Source of the DNA: Planctomycetia bacterium
Lineage (GTDB): Bacteria > Planctomycetota > Planctomycetia > Pirellulales > UBA1268
Assembly: GCA_021414115.1 (NCBI GenBank)
Contig: JAIOPD010000061.1
Span: forward strand, 1-45,730
Direction of reading: 5' to 3'
DNA: 45,730 nucleotides
The first letter of the stretch is position 1; the number at the start of each line of letters is the position of its first letter. Below, piece by piece: positions 6,677 through 21,360 of this stretch. Made by a program: the position numbers and the translations under genes. The notes under the pieces were generated by a model, which had not been told where the DNA came from, made no database searches, and saw only the letters and a program-made list of their open reading frames with translations.

Positions 6677-6714
6677 TCCGCAAAACGGATGGCGGCCGGG
6701 TAGACTCGGCGGCC

Positions 6715-7620
6715 ATGTCAGCCCACGCAGATATCCGCATCGGCACCCTCGTGCCCGCCCACGACCGCACGGCCGAGGTCATCGGTCAGCTTCTGCCCCA
6801 CGGGTTCGAGACGTTTCAGATCAGTTTTGGCCGCACCGTCGGGGGCTTCGACATCGCAGCGCTCGCTGACGCCGTGCACCGCGTGCTCGACGCCCATCCC
6901 GTCGGCCCACACGATCTGCCACGGCGGGTGAGCGCGATCGGCGTCTACGGCAACCCGCTGACGAGCCCGGAGACCGTCGCCGACTGGGAACGCCTCATCG
7001 ATGCCGCGAGCCTGTTCGACTGCGACGTCGTCTCGGGATTCGCGGGGCGGATTCCCGGCCGACCGGTGCCGGAGTCATACGCCCCATTCGCGAAGGTGTT
7101 CGGCCCGCTCGCCCGTCGCGCGGAGGAGCGAGGCGTGCGACTCGCCTTCGAAAACTGCGAGAAGCGGGGCACGTGGGAGAGCGGCGACTGGAACATCGCC
7201 CACGCACCCGCCGCCTGGGATGCGATGTTTGCGGCGGTGGACAGCCCCGTGATCGGCCTGGAATGGGAGCCGTGCCACCAGCTCGTGAGTTTTGTCGAGC
7301 CGCTCCCGCAACTCCGCAAATACGCCTCCCGCATCTGGCACATCCACGGGAAGGATGCGACCGTGCTCTGGGACGTGATCCGTGAGCATGGCATCCGCGG
7401 CGGCGTGCCTTATGTCCACCACCGCACGCCGGGGTTCGGCGACACGAACTGGACCGACCTCATCAGCATCCTGCGGATCGCAGGCTGGCGTGGAAGCATC
7501 GATGTCGAGGGCTTTCACGATCCGGTGTATCGAGATTCCCTGGAGACGACCGGTCAGGTCGCAGCGCTCGAGCACCTGAAAAGGTGCCGGGGCGGGACGT
7601 TCACACCGAACCCGTGGTGA
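6715..7620 (+). CDS. Sugar phosphate isomerase/epimerase family protein (AP endonuclease 2-like TIM barrel)
   Basis: A 301-residue xylose-isomerase-like TIM barrel. Metal-site strands are recognisable: GVRLAFENCEKRG (Glu), SPVIGLEWEPCHQL (Glu and His), RIWHIHGKDA (His) and SIDVEGFHDP (Glu). These fit the divalent-metal site of sugar isomerases and epimerases. There is no signal peptide. The ATG at 6715 begins MSAHADIRIGTLVP, where the first barrel strand starts; the open frame upstream runs through the repeat at 6616-6676 and is not coding. The substrate is unknown. Many planctomycete paralogues of this family are annotated only to fold level. Confidence 0.85.
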   Translation: MSAHADIRIGTLVPAHDRTAEVIGQLLPHGFETFQISFGRTVGGFDIAALADAVHRVLDAHPVGPHDLPRRVSAIGVYGNPLTSPETVADWERLIDAASLFDCDVVSGFAGRIPGRPVPESYAPFAKVFGPLARRAEERGVRLAFENCEKRGTWESGDWNIAHAPAAWDAMFAAVDSPVIGLEWEPCHQLVSFVEPLPQLRKYASRIWHIHGKDATVLWDVIREHGIRGGVPYVHHRTPGFGDTNWTDLISILRIAGWRGSIDVEGFHDPVYRDSLETTGQVAALEHLKRCRGGTFTPNPW

Positions 7621-7628
7621 GCGGTTGC

Positions 7629-8144
7629 TCAGCCCACCATCAGGACGGCGATCGCGATCACCGCGGCCCCGATACTGACGGGCAACGCGGCCCACGATCG
7701 GCCCTGTGCCGCAAACCGGCGACGACGTTCCTCGATCGGCAGGTCGAGCAACTCCTCGAGGTCGGCCACCGTGATCGGCTTCGAGAGCACCACATCCACA
7801 CCCACCTCGAGCGCGGACTGCTCGGCGAGTTGACGATGACGGGAACCTTCCGACTCCACGTCAACCATGGCGATCTTGGCACCGGCCCGACGGGACTCGA
7901 GCAGACCGACGAAGTCTTGCCCGGACATGTCGTCAAGATCGGGTGCGATCAGCCAGGCGTCCACCGGGATTTTGCCGGCGAGTTTGATCGCTGCCCCGCC
8001 GCTGGAACGAAGATGAAGATCGAGACGGCCCATTCGAGCACTGGCGGCCAAGGCCCCGTAGGAGTCGAACGATGGATCGACGACCACCACGCTCGGCAGG
8101 CGGGCACGCTCGTCGCCATCGAGTTCAAATGCGTGGATCACCAT
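7629..8144 (-). CDS. Degenerate receiver-domain protein with C-terminal membrane anchor
   Basis: 171 residues. Residues about 15-140 follow the CheY-like pattern: a first strand SVVVVDPSFD, a third strand DAWLIAPDLDDMSG, a fourth strand KIAMVDVES, and VLSKPITVADLEELL with the conserved Lys-Pro. Counting back eight positions from the Gly of DMSG puts Ala where the phosphoacceptor Asp should be, and the usual Thr/Ser of strand four is Asp. It therefore looks like a pseudo-receiver that is not phosphorylated. A basic segment (EERRRRFAAQGR) is followed by a hydrophobic C-terminal span ending IAIAVLMVG, giving a tail anchor with the receiver on the cytoplasmic side. It is the last gene of a three-gene operon with the two genes upstream. 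Confidence 0.7.
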   Translation of the reverse strand: MVIHAFELDGDERARLPSVVVVDPSFDSYGALAASARMGRLDLHLRSSGGAAIKLAGKIPVDAWLIAPDLDDMSGQDFVGLLESRRAGAKIAMVDVESEGSRHRQLAEQSALEVGVDVVLSKPITVADLEELLDLPIEERRRRFAAQGRSWAALPVSIGAAVIAIAVLMVG

Positions 8145-8192
8145 GTGGAGTACTCCTTCGAAGAGACCGCGGACGTCAGCGACGGAAATGAA

Positions 8193-8300
8193 TCAGACAA
8201 GACTTACGATCGAGAGAAACAAGCAGATGGGCACGAGACACAGCACGACGTCTGTTCGCGTAAGCGTTCGTGCGGTGGTGTATCCGGGCAACCTACTCAT
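8193..8300 (-). CDS. 35-residue single-span membrane peptide, translationally coupled
   Basis: A very short gene beginning MSRLPGYTTARTLTRTD followed by a hydrophobic run (VVLCLVPICLFLSIVSLV) to the stop, so it should be a one-span membrane peptide with a basic cytoplasmic N-terminus. Its ATG overlaps the TGA of the upstream PEP-CTERM gene as ATGA, and GGAGG lies 8 bp before the ATG, inside the upstream gene, so translation is probably coupled. It ends 48 bp before the receiver-like gene. No family is recognised. The strong ribosome-binding site and exact overlap argue that it is a real gene. Confidence 0.6.
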   Translation of the reverse strand: MSRLPGYTTARTLTRTDVVLCLVPICLFLSIVSLV

Positions 8301-8665
8301 GAGCGATCCTCCTTATGGGCGGACGTCGGCGTCCGCTTCCTGAGCATCGAACGTCCGCAGAACACGCCGCCAATCGCCATTCCGGCGAGCACGATGGCCG
8401 GCGGCTCCGGCGCAGCCAGACCGGTGACAAGTTGGACGTTGACCTCCGAGTCTCCCTGGAACTGGTTGGAAGCCATCGACAGGTCGACGAACGTCTCGTT
8501 CTCGCCCGCCCATGCCAAGGAACCCGCCGAAGTCGCGGCAAAGGCTGTCGACAAGCCACCGAGGATGGACGTCGAATCGGCGTTCCACCCGAGTTCGGCT
8601 GCAAATGCGGGGTAACTGGCGAACATGACGGTCGCGGCGATGACGGAGGAGATGGTGCGGTTCAT
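8297..8665 (-). CDS. Small PEP-CTERM sorting-domain protein
   Basis: A 122-residue exported protein. It has an N-terminal signal peptide ending near YPAFAAE and a short Ser/Thr/Ala-rich body. The C-terminal PEP-CTERM signature is APEPPAIVLAGMAIGG, then a Cys-containing hydrophobic end and a basic tail (RSMLRKR). PEP-CTERM proteins are processed by exosortase and go to the cell surface. A TGAGGA ribosome-binding site precedes the ATG and lies in a small inverted repeat (CCTCA...TGAGG, 8676-8692) that could fold over it in the mRNA. First gene of a three-gene operon; its stop overlaps the next start. Confidence 0.8.
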   Translation of the reverse strand: MNRTISSVIAATVMFASYPAFAAELGWNADSTSILGGLSTAFAATSAGSLAWAGENETFVDLSMASNQFQGDSEVNVQLVTGLAAPEPPAIVLAGMAIGGVFCGRSMLRKRTPTSAHKEDRS

Positions 8666-8890
8666 GGTGTTTGATCCTCAAAACTGGTGAGGTAGGACGG
8701 CATCGTGCCGTGCCTTTGGAATCCCTGAGGACCCTAGGCTCCTTACTCACATGCAAGGTGCATGCCAAACCGGTCATGCTCAGCAAAATCCACCCTCGGA
8801 AAACCGCCGTTTTCGTGTTTTTCTCGTACGATCGATCATTTTTTTGTGATCCCTCAGCCCCGGGGTATGGCGATCCGGTCGATCCAGACT

Positions 8891-8974
8891 GGAGCGAATC
8901 GCCCCACCCGAGCAGCCCGGGTGGGGCGATTCGCTCCACCCCCCGGCCCTGGACCGGGGCGATTCGCTCCACCC
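8891..8974. repeat. 20-bp perfect inverted repeat with a third truncated copy
   Basis: 8891-8910 and 8918-8937 are perfect 20-bp inverted arms (GGAGCGAATCGCCCCACCCG and its complement) around a 7-base loop. A third copy of the right arm, GGGGCGATTCGCTCCACCC, follows at 8956-8974. The block sits in the 384-bp gap (8666-9049) between the divergent PEP-CTERM operon and the PLD gene. A T-run without a GC stem follows at 8838-8845. The hairpin has no adjacent U-tract, so it is not a standard terminator; it may be a repeat-family element or a protein-binding site. Confidence 0.7.
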
Positions 8975-9049
8975 AGGGGTATCGCGAAAGGGTTACTGGT
9001 ACACCGGGCCGATGAGGGCCGCGGGGAGGGCCGTGCTACCCTTGGGCCG

Positions 9050-10525
9050 ATGGAATCAACGCTGACAGTCGTGTGGCGGTGGTGGCTGGCGATGTGGCCC
9101 CACGTCGCGGCGGCGACCGTGCTGACGATCAACGTCGCGGCCTCCATCCACGCGATTCTCCTCAAACGCGACACCCGATCGACGATTGGCTGGGTCGGAC
9201 TGATCTGGTTTTCGCCGGTGTTTGGCGCGATCGCGTACGCCGTGCTGGGGGTCAACCGCATCCGATCCCGCGCGACGCAACTGCGGGCCGGCCAGGCCCG
9301 GGTGACCCATGCACTCGAGCCGGCGGTGGCACAGCCCAACCGGCTTCGCGAGGCGGTCGGCCCTGACGACTCGCCGCTGCGGTCGCTCGTCACGCTCGTG
9401 GGCAACGTCACGGGCCGGCCACTCGTCGACGGCAACACGATCATCCCGCTCGACGGCGGCAACGAAGCCTACCCTGAGATGCTCGAGTCCATCGACGCCG
9501 CCAGCCGCAGCGTCGCCATTGCTTCCTACATCTTCGACAACGACCCGACCGGAAAGGTCTTCGCGGAGGCGCTCGGGCGGGCCGTGGCGCGGGGCGTGGA
9601 GGTTCGCGTCCTCATCGACGGCATCGGCTCGACCTATACCTTCCCGCCTATTACCAGCGTGCTGGCCAACCGCGGCGTCCGCGTCGAGCGGTTTCTCCCG
9701 ACGAGCGTGCCCTTCTATTTCCCGTACGCCAACCTGCGAAATCACCGCAAGATCATGGTCGTCGACGGACGAATCGGCTTCACCGGTGGGCTCAACATTC
9801 GCGATGGCTGCTGGCTGGCCCACAACCCTGCGCACCCCGTCCGCGACACCCACTTCCGCCTCGAGGGCCCGGTGGTCACACAGTTGCTCGAGGTGTTCAT
9901 CGAAGACTGGGCGTTCGCCTCTGGCGAAACCCTCGGCGGCCCTGCCTGGCAGCCCGTTCTCACCCCAGCCGGCACGATGCTCGCCCGCGGAATCCGCTTC
10001 GGCCCCGACGATCCCGACATCGGCCGCATCAAGCTGGTGCTCGTCGGCGCGCTGGCCGCAGCGCAGAAGTCGGTGCGGATCATGACGCCCTACTTTCTTC
10101 CCGACGACGCCATCTTTCAGGCGCTCGACGTGGCCGCGATGCGAGGTGTGCAGGTCGACATCGTGCTGCCGGAGGAAAACAACCTGGCGCTCGTCGGCTG
10201 GGCCAGCGACGCCATGCTCTGGCAGGCGTTGGGCCGCGGCTGCAACGTCTGGATGTCGTCTCCTCCGTTCGAGCACACGAAGCTCATGGTGGTCGATTCA
10301 TCGTGGGCGATGTTCGGTAGCGGCAACTGGGACGAGCGGAGCATGCGGCTCAATTTCGAGTTCAACGTGGAGACCTACGACCGCAGCCTGGCCGCTCGAC
10401 TCGACGAGCGAATCGCCGCCGTGATGGGCCGCGCCCGCCGGCGGACGCTCGCAGACGTCGATGGCCGCAGTCTGCCGGTGCGACTGCGGGACGGCGTCGC
10501 CCGCCTCTTGAGCCCCTACCTCTGA
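9050..10525 (+). CDS. cls: Cardiolipin synthase-type phospholipase D protein
   Basis: 491 residues with the architecture of bacterial cardiolipin synthases: N-terminal hydrophobic segments (about 5-70, including GWVGLIWFSPVFGAIAYAVLG) and two phospholipase D HKD motifs. The first is NHRKIMVVDGRIGFTGGLN with His232; the second is EHTKLMVVDSSWAMFGSGN with His409. Cls condenses two phosphatidylglycerols into cardiolipin in the inner membrane. The ATG at 9050 is used because it precedes the first membrane segment; the longer open frame crosses the inverted repeat at 8891-8974 and is not coding. No related gene lies next to it. Confidence 0.92.
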   Translation: MESTLTVVWRWWLAMWPHVAAATVLTINVAASIHAILLKRDTRSTIGWVGLIWFSPVFGAIAYAVLGVNRIRSRATQLRAGQARVTHALEPAVAQPNRLREAVGPDDSPLRSLVTLVGNVTGRPLVDGNTIIPLDGGNEAYPEMLESIDAASRSVAIASYIFDNDPTGKVFAEALGRAVARGVEVRVLIDGIGSTYTFPPITSVLANRGVRVERFLPTSVPFYFPYANLRNHRKIMVVDGRIGFTGGLNIRDGCWLAHNPAHPVRDTHFRLEGPVVTQLLEVFIEDWAFASGETLGGPAWQPVLTPAGTMLARGIRFGPDDPDIGRIKLVLVGALAAAQKSVRIMTPYFLPDDAIFQALDVAAMRGVQVDIVLPEENNLALVGWASDAMLWQALGRGCNVWMSSPPFEHTKLMVVDSSWAMFGSGNWDERSMRLNFEFNVETYDRSLAARLDERIAAVMGRARRRTLADVDGRSLPVRLRDGVARLLSPYL

Positions 10526-18984: not shown

Positions 18985-21360
18985 TTAGGTGATCCGGCGG
19001 CGCGCCCAGAGGGACCAGCCGACGAGGCCGACTCCCAGGCCGGCGAGAGCGAGCGATCCAGGCTCTGGAACCACAATCACCTGGGCGTTGATCGTGAGGT
19101 CGCGGCGGCTTGAGGCACCGGAGAGATTTTGGTTGTCGTAGAACGAGAGCGTGAACGTCTTTGAGAAAGTGCCCTGGCCCGTGGGATTGAACGTGAACGT
19201 GAACAGGCTGCTCGTGCCGCCGCCGCCGAGATTGTTGAACGTGGTCAGCCCCGATGTGAAGCCGTCGCCATCGGCCGTGAAGGCCGTGAAATCGAGGCCG
19301 GCGGTCAGCCCGGCGCCATACGTCTGGCTGGCGAGATTGAGCAGGTTGTAGGTGAAGTTCTGAATGCCCGCCGCCTGGTCAATGGATCCAAAATCGATGT
19401 TCAAAACGTCCTGCGTGTAGGCATTCGTGATGCCACTCGCCAGAAAACCGGGAGTGGCGTGATCGAGCACGTCGACGGTCACAGAGCCATTCGCCGGCGA
19501 GCCGATTGCGTTCGCATCAGTGAGCGTAAACGAGCCGGTCTGGCTCGCGCCGACGGTCGTGCCGGTAAAGAAGAGGCCAGCGATATTCGTGCTCGTGGAA
19601 TTCGCACCGGCAGTACCGCCGCTCGAGCCGACCACATTCGAGCCATTGGAACTTGCAAAGGAGAGCGTGGACCCGCCCGTGGGCGTGATGTTGGAAACCG
19701 TGTAGCCGAACGCAGTCGAGCCGCCCGTTATGATCGATGTCGCCGCCGGCGTCGCCGTGATGGTGCCAAACTCGGCCTTTCGCTGGGCATCGACCTCGTT
19801 GGCATTCACCGTGTTGTAGCGGAGCAGGTAGTTGGAATTCAGCCCCGTGACGCTTCCAAAGGTGCCGGACACCGACGATCCGGCGACCAGCCTGTAGAGG
19901 CCCGCTCCGGTCGCCATGCTGGTGAGGTCGAGCGTGCTCGTGCCGGCAAGGTTCACTGCTCCGGTTGCCGAGAGCACCACCGTGGATGTCGCGCTTGACG
20001 TCGGTGCCATGGCGATCGTGCCACCCGAGCCCGAGAACGAGAGGCTTCCGATCTGGTTCGTGTAGGTTCCCATGGTGAGTCGGCCCGGCCCACCGTCGCC
20101 GCCCGCATCTGAGCCACCGATCGTCACCGCCGAGTTCGACGGGATAGCGTTATTGGTTGCGAGGGCGAGCGTGCCGCTCGAGTTGATGAAGGTCGGGCCG
20201 GTGTAGCTGTTGGCGGTCGAGAGGGTTGTGAAGCCGTTCTGAACGGCGAGGTCGGAGTTGAGGCTCGTGCCCGTGATGATTCCGGTGACGGTGATGCCCG
20301 CGGAACCGCCTCGCAGTCGCAGCACCGTGCCATTCTTCGTGAGCGTGCCGGAGAGGGCGAGCGAGCCAACGCCGGCATTCGTCACGGCGCCGATGCCGCT
20401 CGACACGGTGATATTCCGTGCGAACGTATCGGCGGCTCCGGTGTAGGTGAGCCCCGCCCCGTTGGCGATACTGATGCCGGAGGTCGCCGCAAGGGCGTTC
20501 TTGTTGGCGAAGCTCAGGACGCCGGCGCTGATCGTCGTCGCACCCGTGAAGCCGTTGGAACCCCCGAGCACGAGTGTGCCGGCCCCCAGCTTGACAAGGC
20601 CGCGTGCGCCACCATTCGCGCCGGTCGTGTCGGCGATCGCGTCATTGATCGTGAACGTGCCGCCAGACGCGTTGCTGGTGTCGAAGCCGAGCGCGGAGCC
20701 GGCATTCATGCCGTTTGCGGTGCTCGTGCTCGAGGCGAGGTTCGTGAGCAGCGTGGTGACGTTGCCCGTGGTAAACTCGCTGCCACCGCCGACGTTGAAG
20801 GCGAGTGTCGCGCCGCTGCCCGTCGAGATGTTCGCTGCGTTCCAGTTTGCCGTGCTTCCGCTGTAGAGCGACGCAGGCCGGCCGAACTGCAGAATGCCGC
20901 CGGTTATAGCCATCGCACCCGTAAAGGTGTTGGTGCCGGTGAGCGACAAGGCCCCCGCTCCCACCTTCGTGAACACGGTGCCTGCAGACCCGGTCGTGCC
21001 GATATTGCCACTGAAGGTCGAGTTCGACCCCGAGGTCGTCACCGTGATCGTGCCAAAGTACGGGATGGCGGCGCTCACGTTCACATCACGGCCATTCAGA
21101 GAGAGTTGGCGGATATATGCACCTCCCGTGCCCCAGCTCAGGCCAGTCGTGTTCGAAAGCGTGATAACGCCGGTACCAGAGGTGACGTTGAGCTGAGCGA
21201 GAGAATAATTGACTGCGTTGACACCAATTGCGACGTTCAGATCGACGTTGGCGTTGCCGGCGCTGGTGTCGATATTCAGGACGCCTGTGTCGCTAAAGGC
21301 CGTTCCCAGCATGCCCCGACAGGGACCCAGACCCGATGATGCCCGCGGTTGGGAATGCAA
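18985..21360 (-). CDS. C-terminal part of split autotransporter-repeat PEP-CTERM protein
   Basis: 791 codons of a beta-helical adhesin-like protein with no signal peptide. It is built of autotransporter-associated repeats (for example GTLVLGGSNGFTGATTISAG, LSLTGTNTFTGAMAITGG) and ends in a PEP-CTERM tail VPEPGSLALAGLGVG...WARRR. The first 16 residues are out-of-frame sequence; homology to the upstream fragment starts at MLGTAFSDTG (Met at 21312). The N-terminal half with the signal peptide lies directly upstream in another frame (21293-23176). The two together give a normal exported protein of about 1,390 residues, so this piece is probably not made, or not exported, by itself. Confidence 0.75.
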   Translation of the reverse strand: MHSQPRASSGLGPCRGMLGTAFSDTGVLNIDTSAGNANVDLNVAIGVNAVNYSLAQLNVTSGTGVITLSNTTGLSWGTGGAYIRQLSLNGRDVNVSAAIPYFGTITVTTSGSNSTFSGNIGTTGSAGTVFTKVGAGALSLTGTNTFTGAMAITGGILQFGRPASLYSGSTANWNAANISTGSGATLAFNVGGGSEFTTGNVTTLLTNLASSTSTANGMNAGSALGFDTSNASGGTFTINDAIADTTGANGGARGLVKLGAGTLVLGGSNGFTGATTISAGVLSFANKNALAATSGISIANGAGLTYTGAADTFARNITVSSGIGAVTNAGVGSLALSGTLTKNGTVLRLRGGSAGITVTGIITGTSLNSDLAVQNGFTTLSTANSYTGPTFINSSGTLALATNNAIPSNSAVTIGGSDAGGDGGPGRLTMGTYTNQIGSLSFSGSGGTIAMAPTSSATSTVVLSATGAVNLAGTSTLDLTSMATGAGLYRLVAGSSVSGTFGSVTGLNSNYLLRYNTVNANEVDAQRKAEFGTITATPAATSIITGGSTAFGYTVSNITPTGGSTLSFASSNGSNVVGSSGGTAGANSTSTNIAGLFFTGTTVGASQTGSFTLTDANAIGSPANGSVTVDVLDHATPGFLASGITNAYTQDVLNIDFGSIDQAAGIQNFTYNLLNLASQTYGAGLTAGLDFTAFTADGDGFTSGLTTFNNLGGGGTSSLFTFTFNPTGQGTFSKTFTLSFYDNQNLSGASSRRDLTINAQVIVVPEPGSLALAGLGVGLVGWSLWARRRIT
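21176..21316 (-). repeat. 141-bp block identical to 22362-22502
   Basis: These 141 bp match 22362-22502 at every base, although the flanking repeat sequence has diverged clearly. The block encodes the segment around NIDTSAGNANVDLNVAIGVN in both places. It ends exactly where the frameshift begins, which suggests recent gene conversion, a duplication, or an assembly problem at this edge. Confidence 0.85.

Follow-up and report, generated by a model that had tools for sequence, protein, structure and literature searches.

The window analysed here is a 45,730-nucleotide stretch of DNA that forms one contig (C50) among the 144 of a draft genome of 4.35 Mb, henceforth referred to as the source genome (G000). 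Three successive frames lie on its minus strand: a gene for a 122-aa PEP-CTERM-like protein (8665-8297), a gene for a 35-aa one-span membrane peptide, designated P1 (8300-8193), and a gene for a 171-aa pseudo-receiver ending in a C-terminal membrane helix, or tail anchor, designated RR1 (8144-7629). The P1 start ATG overlaps the TGA stop of the PEP-CTERM-like gene in an ATGA (8300-8297) and is preceded by a GGAGGA Shine-Dalgarno sequence (8307-8312, minus strand), as described in the initial annotation, which had noted the common direction, the overlap and the internal ribosome-binding site. Upstream of the trio lie three helically phased copies of the palindrome TGGRGCGAWTCGCYCCA, between about 8890 and 8971, which are the only matches to this putative operator in the window. 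Copy 1 occupies 8955-8971, with an exact core at 8956-8970, copy 2 (8922-8938) is about three helical turns from its neighbours, and copy 3 (8890-8906) repeats the same palindrome. A sigma-54 (-24/-12) promoter signature, TGGCATGCACCTTGCA, is located on the minus strand at 8767-8752, 123 bp downstream of the array and ~87 bases before the ATG. An Rfam scan of the window returned no match. A second PEP-CTERM protein end is found elsewhere in the window (18994-19071, minus strand), in an open frame of 804 aa.

The 122-aa protein has a signal-like hydrophobic N-terminus and a C-terminal APEPP followed by a helix and an RKR end. Two motifs recur in ten aligned members of its family, SLAWAGENE in slightly varying form and APEPPA(I/L)VLAGMA...GRS with a basic end; all ten display the PEP motif, hydrophobic helix and basic C-terminal end of an exosortase substrate, APEPPA.VLAGMA is invariant, and the N-termini are hydrophobic as judged by eye in the alignment. 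The window member gave no match to PF07589 at E ≤ 1 and 13.5 bits against TIGR04200 (cut-off 40), and it scored below the cut-off of every PEP-CTERM model. Among the ten members, PF07589 was matched by two (best E 0.084), TIGR04200 by five (best E 0.0047), NF033554 by three (best E 0.0027) and TIGR03118 by one (E 0.00039). Used as a query against 60 genomes, the protein gave matches better than E 1e-10 in 11, all of the same genus. It resembles an exosortase substrate, and its sorting is considered likely rather than certain because its scores fall under the Pfam and NCBIfam cut-offs. The earlier description of this gene as encoding a PEP-CTERM protein therefore stands as regards motif, helix, basic end and association with PEP-CTERM proteins, but not as regards the curated cut-offs. 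A single exosortase was identified in the source genome (contig C92; PF09721, E 2.3e-47; TIGR02602, 107.8 bits with a cut-off of 105.55), accompanied by an EpsI-like gene under its own cut-off in a cluster resembling polysaccharide synthesis. The same genome contains 37 PEP-CTERM matches and two copies of P1. PEP-CTERM ends in all locus counts below were called with a pattern of our own; a pattern match near contig C65 of the source genome has no hydrophobic helix and was left uncounted.

P1 was matched in 35 of 60 genomes, the source genome included, at a lax threshold of E ≤ 10. When a P1 profile was searched against 396 genomes of the order, every match with E < 1e-9 fell within its own GTDB family, and the matches outside that family were weak, the best (E 7.5e-4) being of a size expected by chance. 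Pfam and NCBIfam scans of P1 returned nothing, as did NCBIfam scans of two divergent P1 sequences. T14, D17, C21, P24 and F28 are common to 32 aligned P1 sequences and, together with I31 and V35, form a heptad a/d stripe (p 0.00075 by column shuffling). Codon divergence at positions 1, 2 and 3 was 0.36, 0.15 and 0.52, and the median dN/dS was 0.19 over at most 253 pairs. These two measures indicate that P1 is under purifying selection and that the peptide itself is the selected product. The pattern used for the selection, stripe and PEP-CTERM-end counts requires T, D, C and P, so that those columns are invariant by construction; the same four residues are also invariant in the 32-sequence alignment, which was built without the pattern, and two of 53 loci failed it. 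The stated p-values are too small since the relatives compared are not independent of one another.

A Shine-Dalgarno-like sequence precedes the P1 start in 49 of 53 loci against 18.3 expected, the count of 49 being inflated by a choice of start that favoured such a sequence. The N-terminal parts of the 53 peptides contain 114 Lys or Arg residues versus 34 Asp or Glu, and this net positive charge makes an N-in/C-out orientation of P1 likely. P1 and RR1 both terminate with their membrane helices. A pilin-like identity, suggested by GFTVRD and GFTFRD in two g11 members, was rejected, since Gly is absent from most members and the peptide has no globular domain. Upstream of P1, four g11 loci (L196, L199, L202 and L209) encode a third one-span peptide, which ends in ...FVP.V(V/L)PIAIL..S(V/I)..V.

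PEP-CTERM ends were found on the sense strand in the surroundings of P1 at 30 of 53 loci (41 ends, a few of the surroundings overlapping) and on the opposite strand at none. The passengers beside P1 vary from the tiny WAGEN protein to a subtilase and to long proteins in g7 and g11. On the whole, P1 appears to track the sorting tail rather than a given passenger domain, and its recurrence beside PEP-CTERM proteins with unlike passengers agrees with the link to sorting made in the initial annotation. Of 12 P1-like peptides from g7 and g11, part of the divergent loci recovered with the 396-genome profile, ten have a PEP-CTERM end no more than 1 kb upstream or 4.5 kb downstream; for the remaining two the contig end is only 382 and 748 bases away, and two pairs among the 12 share a contig. 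No PEP-CTERM end was found near a P1-like peptide with operator sites from the source genome's own genus (L204). A toxic or holin-like function of P1, or the status of a simple leader frame, would suit its short, hydrophobic sequence and its leading position in the operon of the second locus type described below, but is improbable given the sequence-specific conservation of P1, including the charged D17 as well as C21 and P24, its low dN/dS of 0.19 and the company of PEP-CTERM genes that it keeps.

RR1 of the window scored 22.1 bits against the receiver domain PF00072, under the gathering score of 30.2; at E ≤ 1 this domain was matched by all 22 RR1 members and by all 18 members of RR2, a second pseudo-receiver that is degenerate as well and has no membrane helix. 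The AlphaFold model of RR1 (mean pLDDT 78.6; residues 138-157 below 50) displays a CheY-like fold with a C-terminal helix at 158-170, and its best Foldseek match in the PDB is 3crn (E 1.6e-7), both consistent with a receiver fold. A67 aligns with the phospho-accepting Asp of PrrA, and in the RR1 alignment this position is a nearly invariant Ala, replaced by Ser or Asn in some members, with no phospho-accepting Asp. The second acidic residue is Pro in nearly all members (P24 of RR1 in the window), and the Lys is not conserved. The pseudo-receiver with a tail anchor proposed from the sequence is hence supported by the Ala, the predicted fold and the hydrophobic C-terminal helix. An RR1 query matched 34 of 60 genomes (source genome included) at E ≤ 1e-3, the weak matches in other families probably being ordinary receivers. 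Relatives of RR1 are encoded at 36 loci in a collection of named genomes, almost all of them Planctomycetota bins; two are labelled Pirellulales, some bear the genus labels Kuenenia or Planctomicrobium, which are labels only, and one is given just as 'bacterium'. Such labels suggest Pirellulales as the order and fresh water as the habitat. A free one-span peptide, designated P2, resembles the RR1 tail by eye only, and membrane helices resemble each other easily.

Synteny was compared at 14 loci around RR1 or P1 matches plus the window. The order PEP-CTERM-like gene, P1, RR1 in one direction was found at 10 of these 15 loci (the window, L068-L075 and L080), with contig ends cutting RR1 in L075 and the PEP-CTERM-like gene in L080, and the trio is present in 10 of 22 genomes of the genus, several of which are incomplete. 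The initial annotation had let its proposal depend on conservation of the trio and of the 35-residue frame; both are conserved, the trio at 10 loci and P1 under purifying selection. Of the remaining loci, L078 begins at P1 and two (L079 and L081) belong to a second locus type. The three genes are separable, since L076 has the PEP-CTERM-like gene and RR1 without P1 and L077 has P1 and RR1 without the PEP-CTERM-like gene.

The second locus type adjoins aroB (PF01761, PF24621) in many genomes of the family, and the copy in the source genome (contig C108) is a paralogous operon. This aroB-side locus carries P1, a secreted-looking protein, RR2, a QNDWQFPDPYFG protein and a PEP-CTERM-tailed subtilase, and in many genomes also P2 and RR1. 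The subtilase of the source genome scores above cut-off with both PF00082 and PF07589. In this protein (L082, 7379-9262) the catalytic Asp motif typical of such enzymes apparently reads NIEAG, and the His and Ser motifs are kept; it is possibly an altered protease. On another contig of the source genome (C19, L083, about 6700-9940), an RR2-like pseudo-receiver precedes a repetitive PEP-CTERM protein of 905 aa, and the operator search gave no match on this contig.

The 17-bp operator consensus TGGRGCGAWTCGCYCCA was derived from 97 exact core sites, with a flanking T in 88 and a flanking A in 89 of the 97. In 534,215 bases, mostly from P1 loci, the motif occurs 95 times and the reversed-pattern control not once. 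One to four copies lie upstream of the operon across P1 loci, with site spacings clustering at 21-24, 31-33, 41-45, 54-55 and 66 bp. The 69 spacings follow a 10.7-bp period (R 0.85), a degree of phasing that none of 5000 random sets reached. Outside g7 and g11, one or more sites (at most one mismatch) lie within 1 kb upstream of 34 of the 35 P1 operons that could be evaluated, and 31 have at least two; four further operons were not evaluable on account of contig ends. In L085, the one exception, P1 follows RR1, with the array at -1871. Among 14 P1-like loci of g7 and g11, one has an operator within 1 kb, and three more g11 loci have one at about 1.25 kb upstream. Of the 37 genomes of the family, 26 contain exact sites; of 23 others, 5 do, with one to three sites each. 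The source genome contains 13 sites at no more than one mismatch, nine of them exact, against none for the reversed control; an array of weaker sites alone could be missed because this search used one palindrome form and at most one mismatch.

TGGCATGCACCTTGCA agrees with the sigma-54 consensus at 10 of 11 positions, a score reached by none of 200 shuffles, with 5 as the best score on the opposite strand. TGGCAC-N5-TTGCA or a close variant, scoring 9-11 of 11 on the sense strand, was found at every one of the 39 P1 loci that have an operator site. The distance from sites to signature is 96-186 bp, and 119-124 bp in 18 of the 39; a P1-proximal site was set aside in placing the array end at L099, L101, L207 and L208. 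The opposite strand scored at least 9 in two of the 39 loci, and 3.1% of 2080 random 220-bp windows, scored on one side, did so. For sites away from P1, the sense-strand test was run on 11 hand-picked arrays or sites, and a repeat took all 28 groups; with either side allowed, 14 of the 16 arrays had a signature of at least 9, as did 3 of the 12 single sites. The palindromic, multi-copy character of the elements is also what a dispersed repeat or terminator would display, yet such an identity is very hard to reconcile with only nine exact sites in 4.35 Mb, with spacings in steps of 10.7 bp and with a sigma-54 signature that lies 96-186 bp downstream on the sense strand.

Arrays of the same kind also precede PEP-CTERM genes without P1. 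In the source genome, all four arrays found precede PEP-CTERM or PEP-CTERM-like genes: the trio of the window, the aroB-side operon on C108, a run with three PEP-CTERM ends on C54 and a single one on C39. The single sites on C12, C14, C65, C86 and C87 precede no PEP-CTERM gene; that on C86 has a promoter-like score of 10. In G013, a PEP-CTERM end lies behind the sites at eight of nine non-P1 loci, and the exception (L228) has a promoter signature and no PEP-CTERM end by our pattern. One array of G002 precedes an RR2-like gene and another ends near a contig edge, while of its single sites one precedes a PEP-CTERM end and two precede nothing of the kind. In G035, an array of four copies, promoter included, sits about 290 bases away from the end of its contig; two further sites have no PEP-CTERM end. 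Proteins that end in VPELDP or VPEVDP...ERRR, perhaps a variant sorting tail, lie behind two of the three sites of G031 (g11 loci L238, 1958-2881, and L240, 4130-5290). An array and sigma-54 signature precede nearly every evaluable P1 operon, across five genera. Because the same array and promoter precede P1 operons and, in the two best-studied genomes, other PEP-CTERM genes, the trio very probably belongs to an RpoN-dependent PEP-CTERM regulon, which covers a subset of the 37 PEP-CTERM matches in the source genome. The initial annotation mentions neither the phased operators and their sigma-54 promoter nor the paralogous operon or the larger regulon; these are new here.

Enhancer-binding proteins that might act at these sites were sought in 14 genomes, which encode 6-13 each. 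Clustering of 100 such proteins yielded a group of 10 that is represented in all seven broadly sampled operator-positive genomes and was not found in operator-negative G001, G007 and G029 (complete) or G022, G025 and G027 (partial sampling). Half of this group forms a subfamily typified by a protein of G017 (contig C52), which was matched in all 26 operator-positive family genomes among the 60 searched, the match being partial in the source genome (contig edge) and in G015. The same subfamily is present in 3 of 11 operator-negative family genomes (G027, G034 and G036), absent from G001, G007, G022, G025 and G029, and it extends to other families that lack the operator. Within about 1.5 kb of 15 genes of this type (L351-L365), neither a PEP-CTERM end nor an operator was found. 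Several of the 15 adjoin an ftsH-type gene (PF01434 in L351), and copies 64-69% identical occur in other families of the order. A second subfamily, typified by proteins on contigs C10 and C87 of the source genome, was matched only in the own family, as far as subfamilies are separable, and was not found in several operator-positive genomes; its C87 gene adjoins a PEP-CTERM gene. Two near-identical (97%) pairs of enhancer-binding genes on different contigs of the source genome (C96/C128 and C55/C27) perhaps reflect strain redundancy of the draft.

The two receiver-less subfamilies are candidate activators; in the three proteins scanned, sigma-54 and Fis-type domains were matched and a receiver was not. 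A split regulator can be imagined on this basis, in which degenerate receivers from the regulon itself would supply in trans the receiver module missing from the activator. RR1, beside P1 and the substrate, would report the sorting state to transcription by contact and without phosphotransfer, tethering the activator until a substrate engages P1, as a form of regulon feedback. The absence of a receiver match, the orphan degenerate receivers RR1 and RR2 encoded by the regulon, and the joint lack of P1, RR1, operator and these activators in G001 and G007, both of the source genome's genus, fit such an arrangement. It is nevertheless unlikely, as the G017-type subfamily is also met in families lacking RR2 or the operator.

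The operator arrays, sigma-54 signatures, synteny, purifying selection on P1, predicted receiver fold and loss of the phospho-acceptor, all established at the level of sequence, are probably best explained by a sigma-54-dependent trio unit within a PEP-CTERM regulon of one GTDB family of Planctomycetota, probably in Pirellulales, coupled to a membrane adaptor. An enhancer-binding protein would recognise the phased palindromes and switch on the -24/-12 promoter, and the small substrate of exosortase type would thereby be produced along with P1 and RR1. P1 and the RR1 tail, or the free P2 that resembles this tail, would be N-in/C-out helices that pack against one another and against either the exosortase or the PEP-CTERM tail, thereby presenting or retaining the substrate. 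The pseudo-receiver would serve as a docking module that recruits a cytoplasmic partner without phosphotransfer. The individual assignments are more tentative: P1 may act at the PEP-CTERM sorting tail, RR1 may be a cytoplasmic adaptor, and P1 and the RR1 tail may form an inner-membrane adaptor at the sorting tail, each of these being possible though somewhat doubtful. The trans-envelope unit of the initial annotation, linking sorting or surface state to the cytoplasm, is supported in part, through the conserved trio in one direction, the pseudo-receiver and the tie to PEP-CTERM proteins; a single complex of the three products, and signalling of surface state by it, are proposals. Co-regulation alone, with P1 and RR1 performing unrelated jobs behind a shared promoter and forming no physical unit, would account for the loci in which the PEP-CTERM-like gene or P1 is missing singly (L077 and L076) and for the presence of just two P1 among 37 PEP-CTERM matches in the source genome. 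It seems rather unlikely, however, since P1 and RR1 share an operon in each of the two locus types and across several genera, and since P1 retains an invariant helix face. The trio-unit reading would make P1, P2 and the tail-anchored pseudo-receiver candidate accessory parts of exosortase sorting, and the precise operator, promoter signature and gene set offer a testable handle on cell-surface control in Planctomycetota.

Several elements of this system have known counterparts. The exosortase/PEP-CTERM system (EpsH family) shares the PEP motif, hydrophobic helix and basic end, and one exosortase is present in the source genome; the tiny WAGEN protein differs in falling under curated cut-offs. 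RR1 has the predicted CheY-like fold of the receiver domain PF00072 and differs from it in the loss of the phospho-accepting Asp and in its membrane-helix end. Phased palindromic sites upstream of a sigma-54 promoter are the usual layout for NtrC-type enhancer-binding proteins, and the layout here is alike, whereas the candidate activators differ in having no receiver match (three scanned). A literature search returned no description of P1, P2 or RR1 as exosortase partners and no paper joining PEP-CTERM with a pseudo-receiver. In the portions of the sources available, RpoN PEP-CTERM regulons were described only in Proteobacteria; a 2004 Pirellula study by Studholme and Dixon, reportedly on the enhancer-binding proteins of Pirellula strain 1, might already name PEP-CTERM promoters.

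The closest parallel is the proteobacterial PEP-CTERM regulon, which depends on RpoN with PrsK/PrsR (PMC1569441, PMC9850573), pepA transcription being RpoN1-dependent (Xia 2023, PMC9850573). Haft 2006 (PMC1569441) describes a 17-nt motif 1 ending in TTTACA and a sigma-54 motif before 99 of 167 genes, found only in Proteobacteria, with motif 1 a mean of 63 nt before motif 2 and the enhancer sometimes repeated; more PEP-CTERM regulators and DNA motifs were expected there, within and outside Proteobacteria. The loci described here likewise have a sigma-54 -24/-12 signature and an upstream 17-nt element before PEP-CTERM genes. Unlike motif 1, the conserved upstream element at P1 loci is a different palindrome, TGGRGCGAWTCGCYCCA, located 96-186 bp upstream and mostly in phased arrays. 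The putative circuit is of the same kind as the proteobacterial RpoN regulon, with another enhancer and in another phylum, and its new parts are P1, P2, RR1 and RR2, encoded together with substrates.
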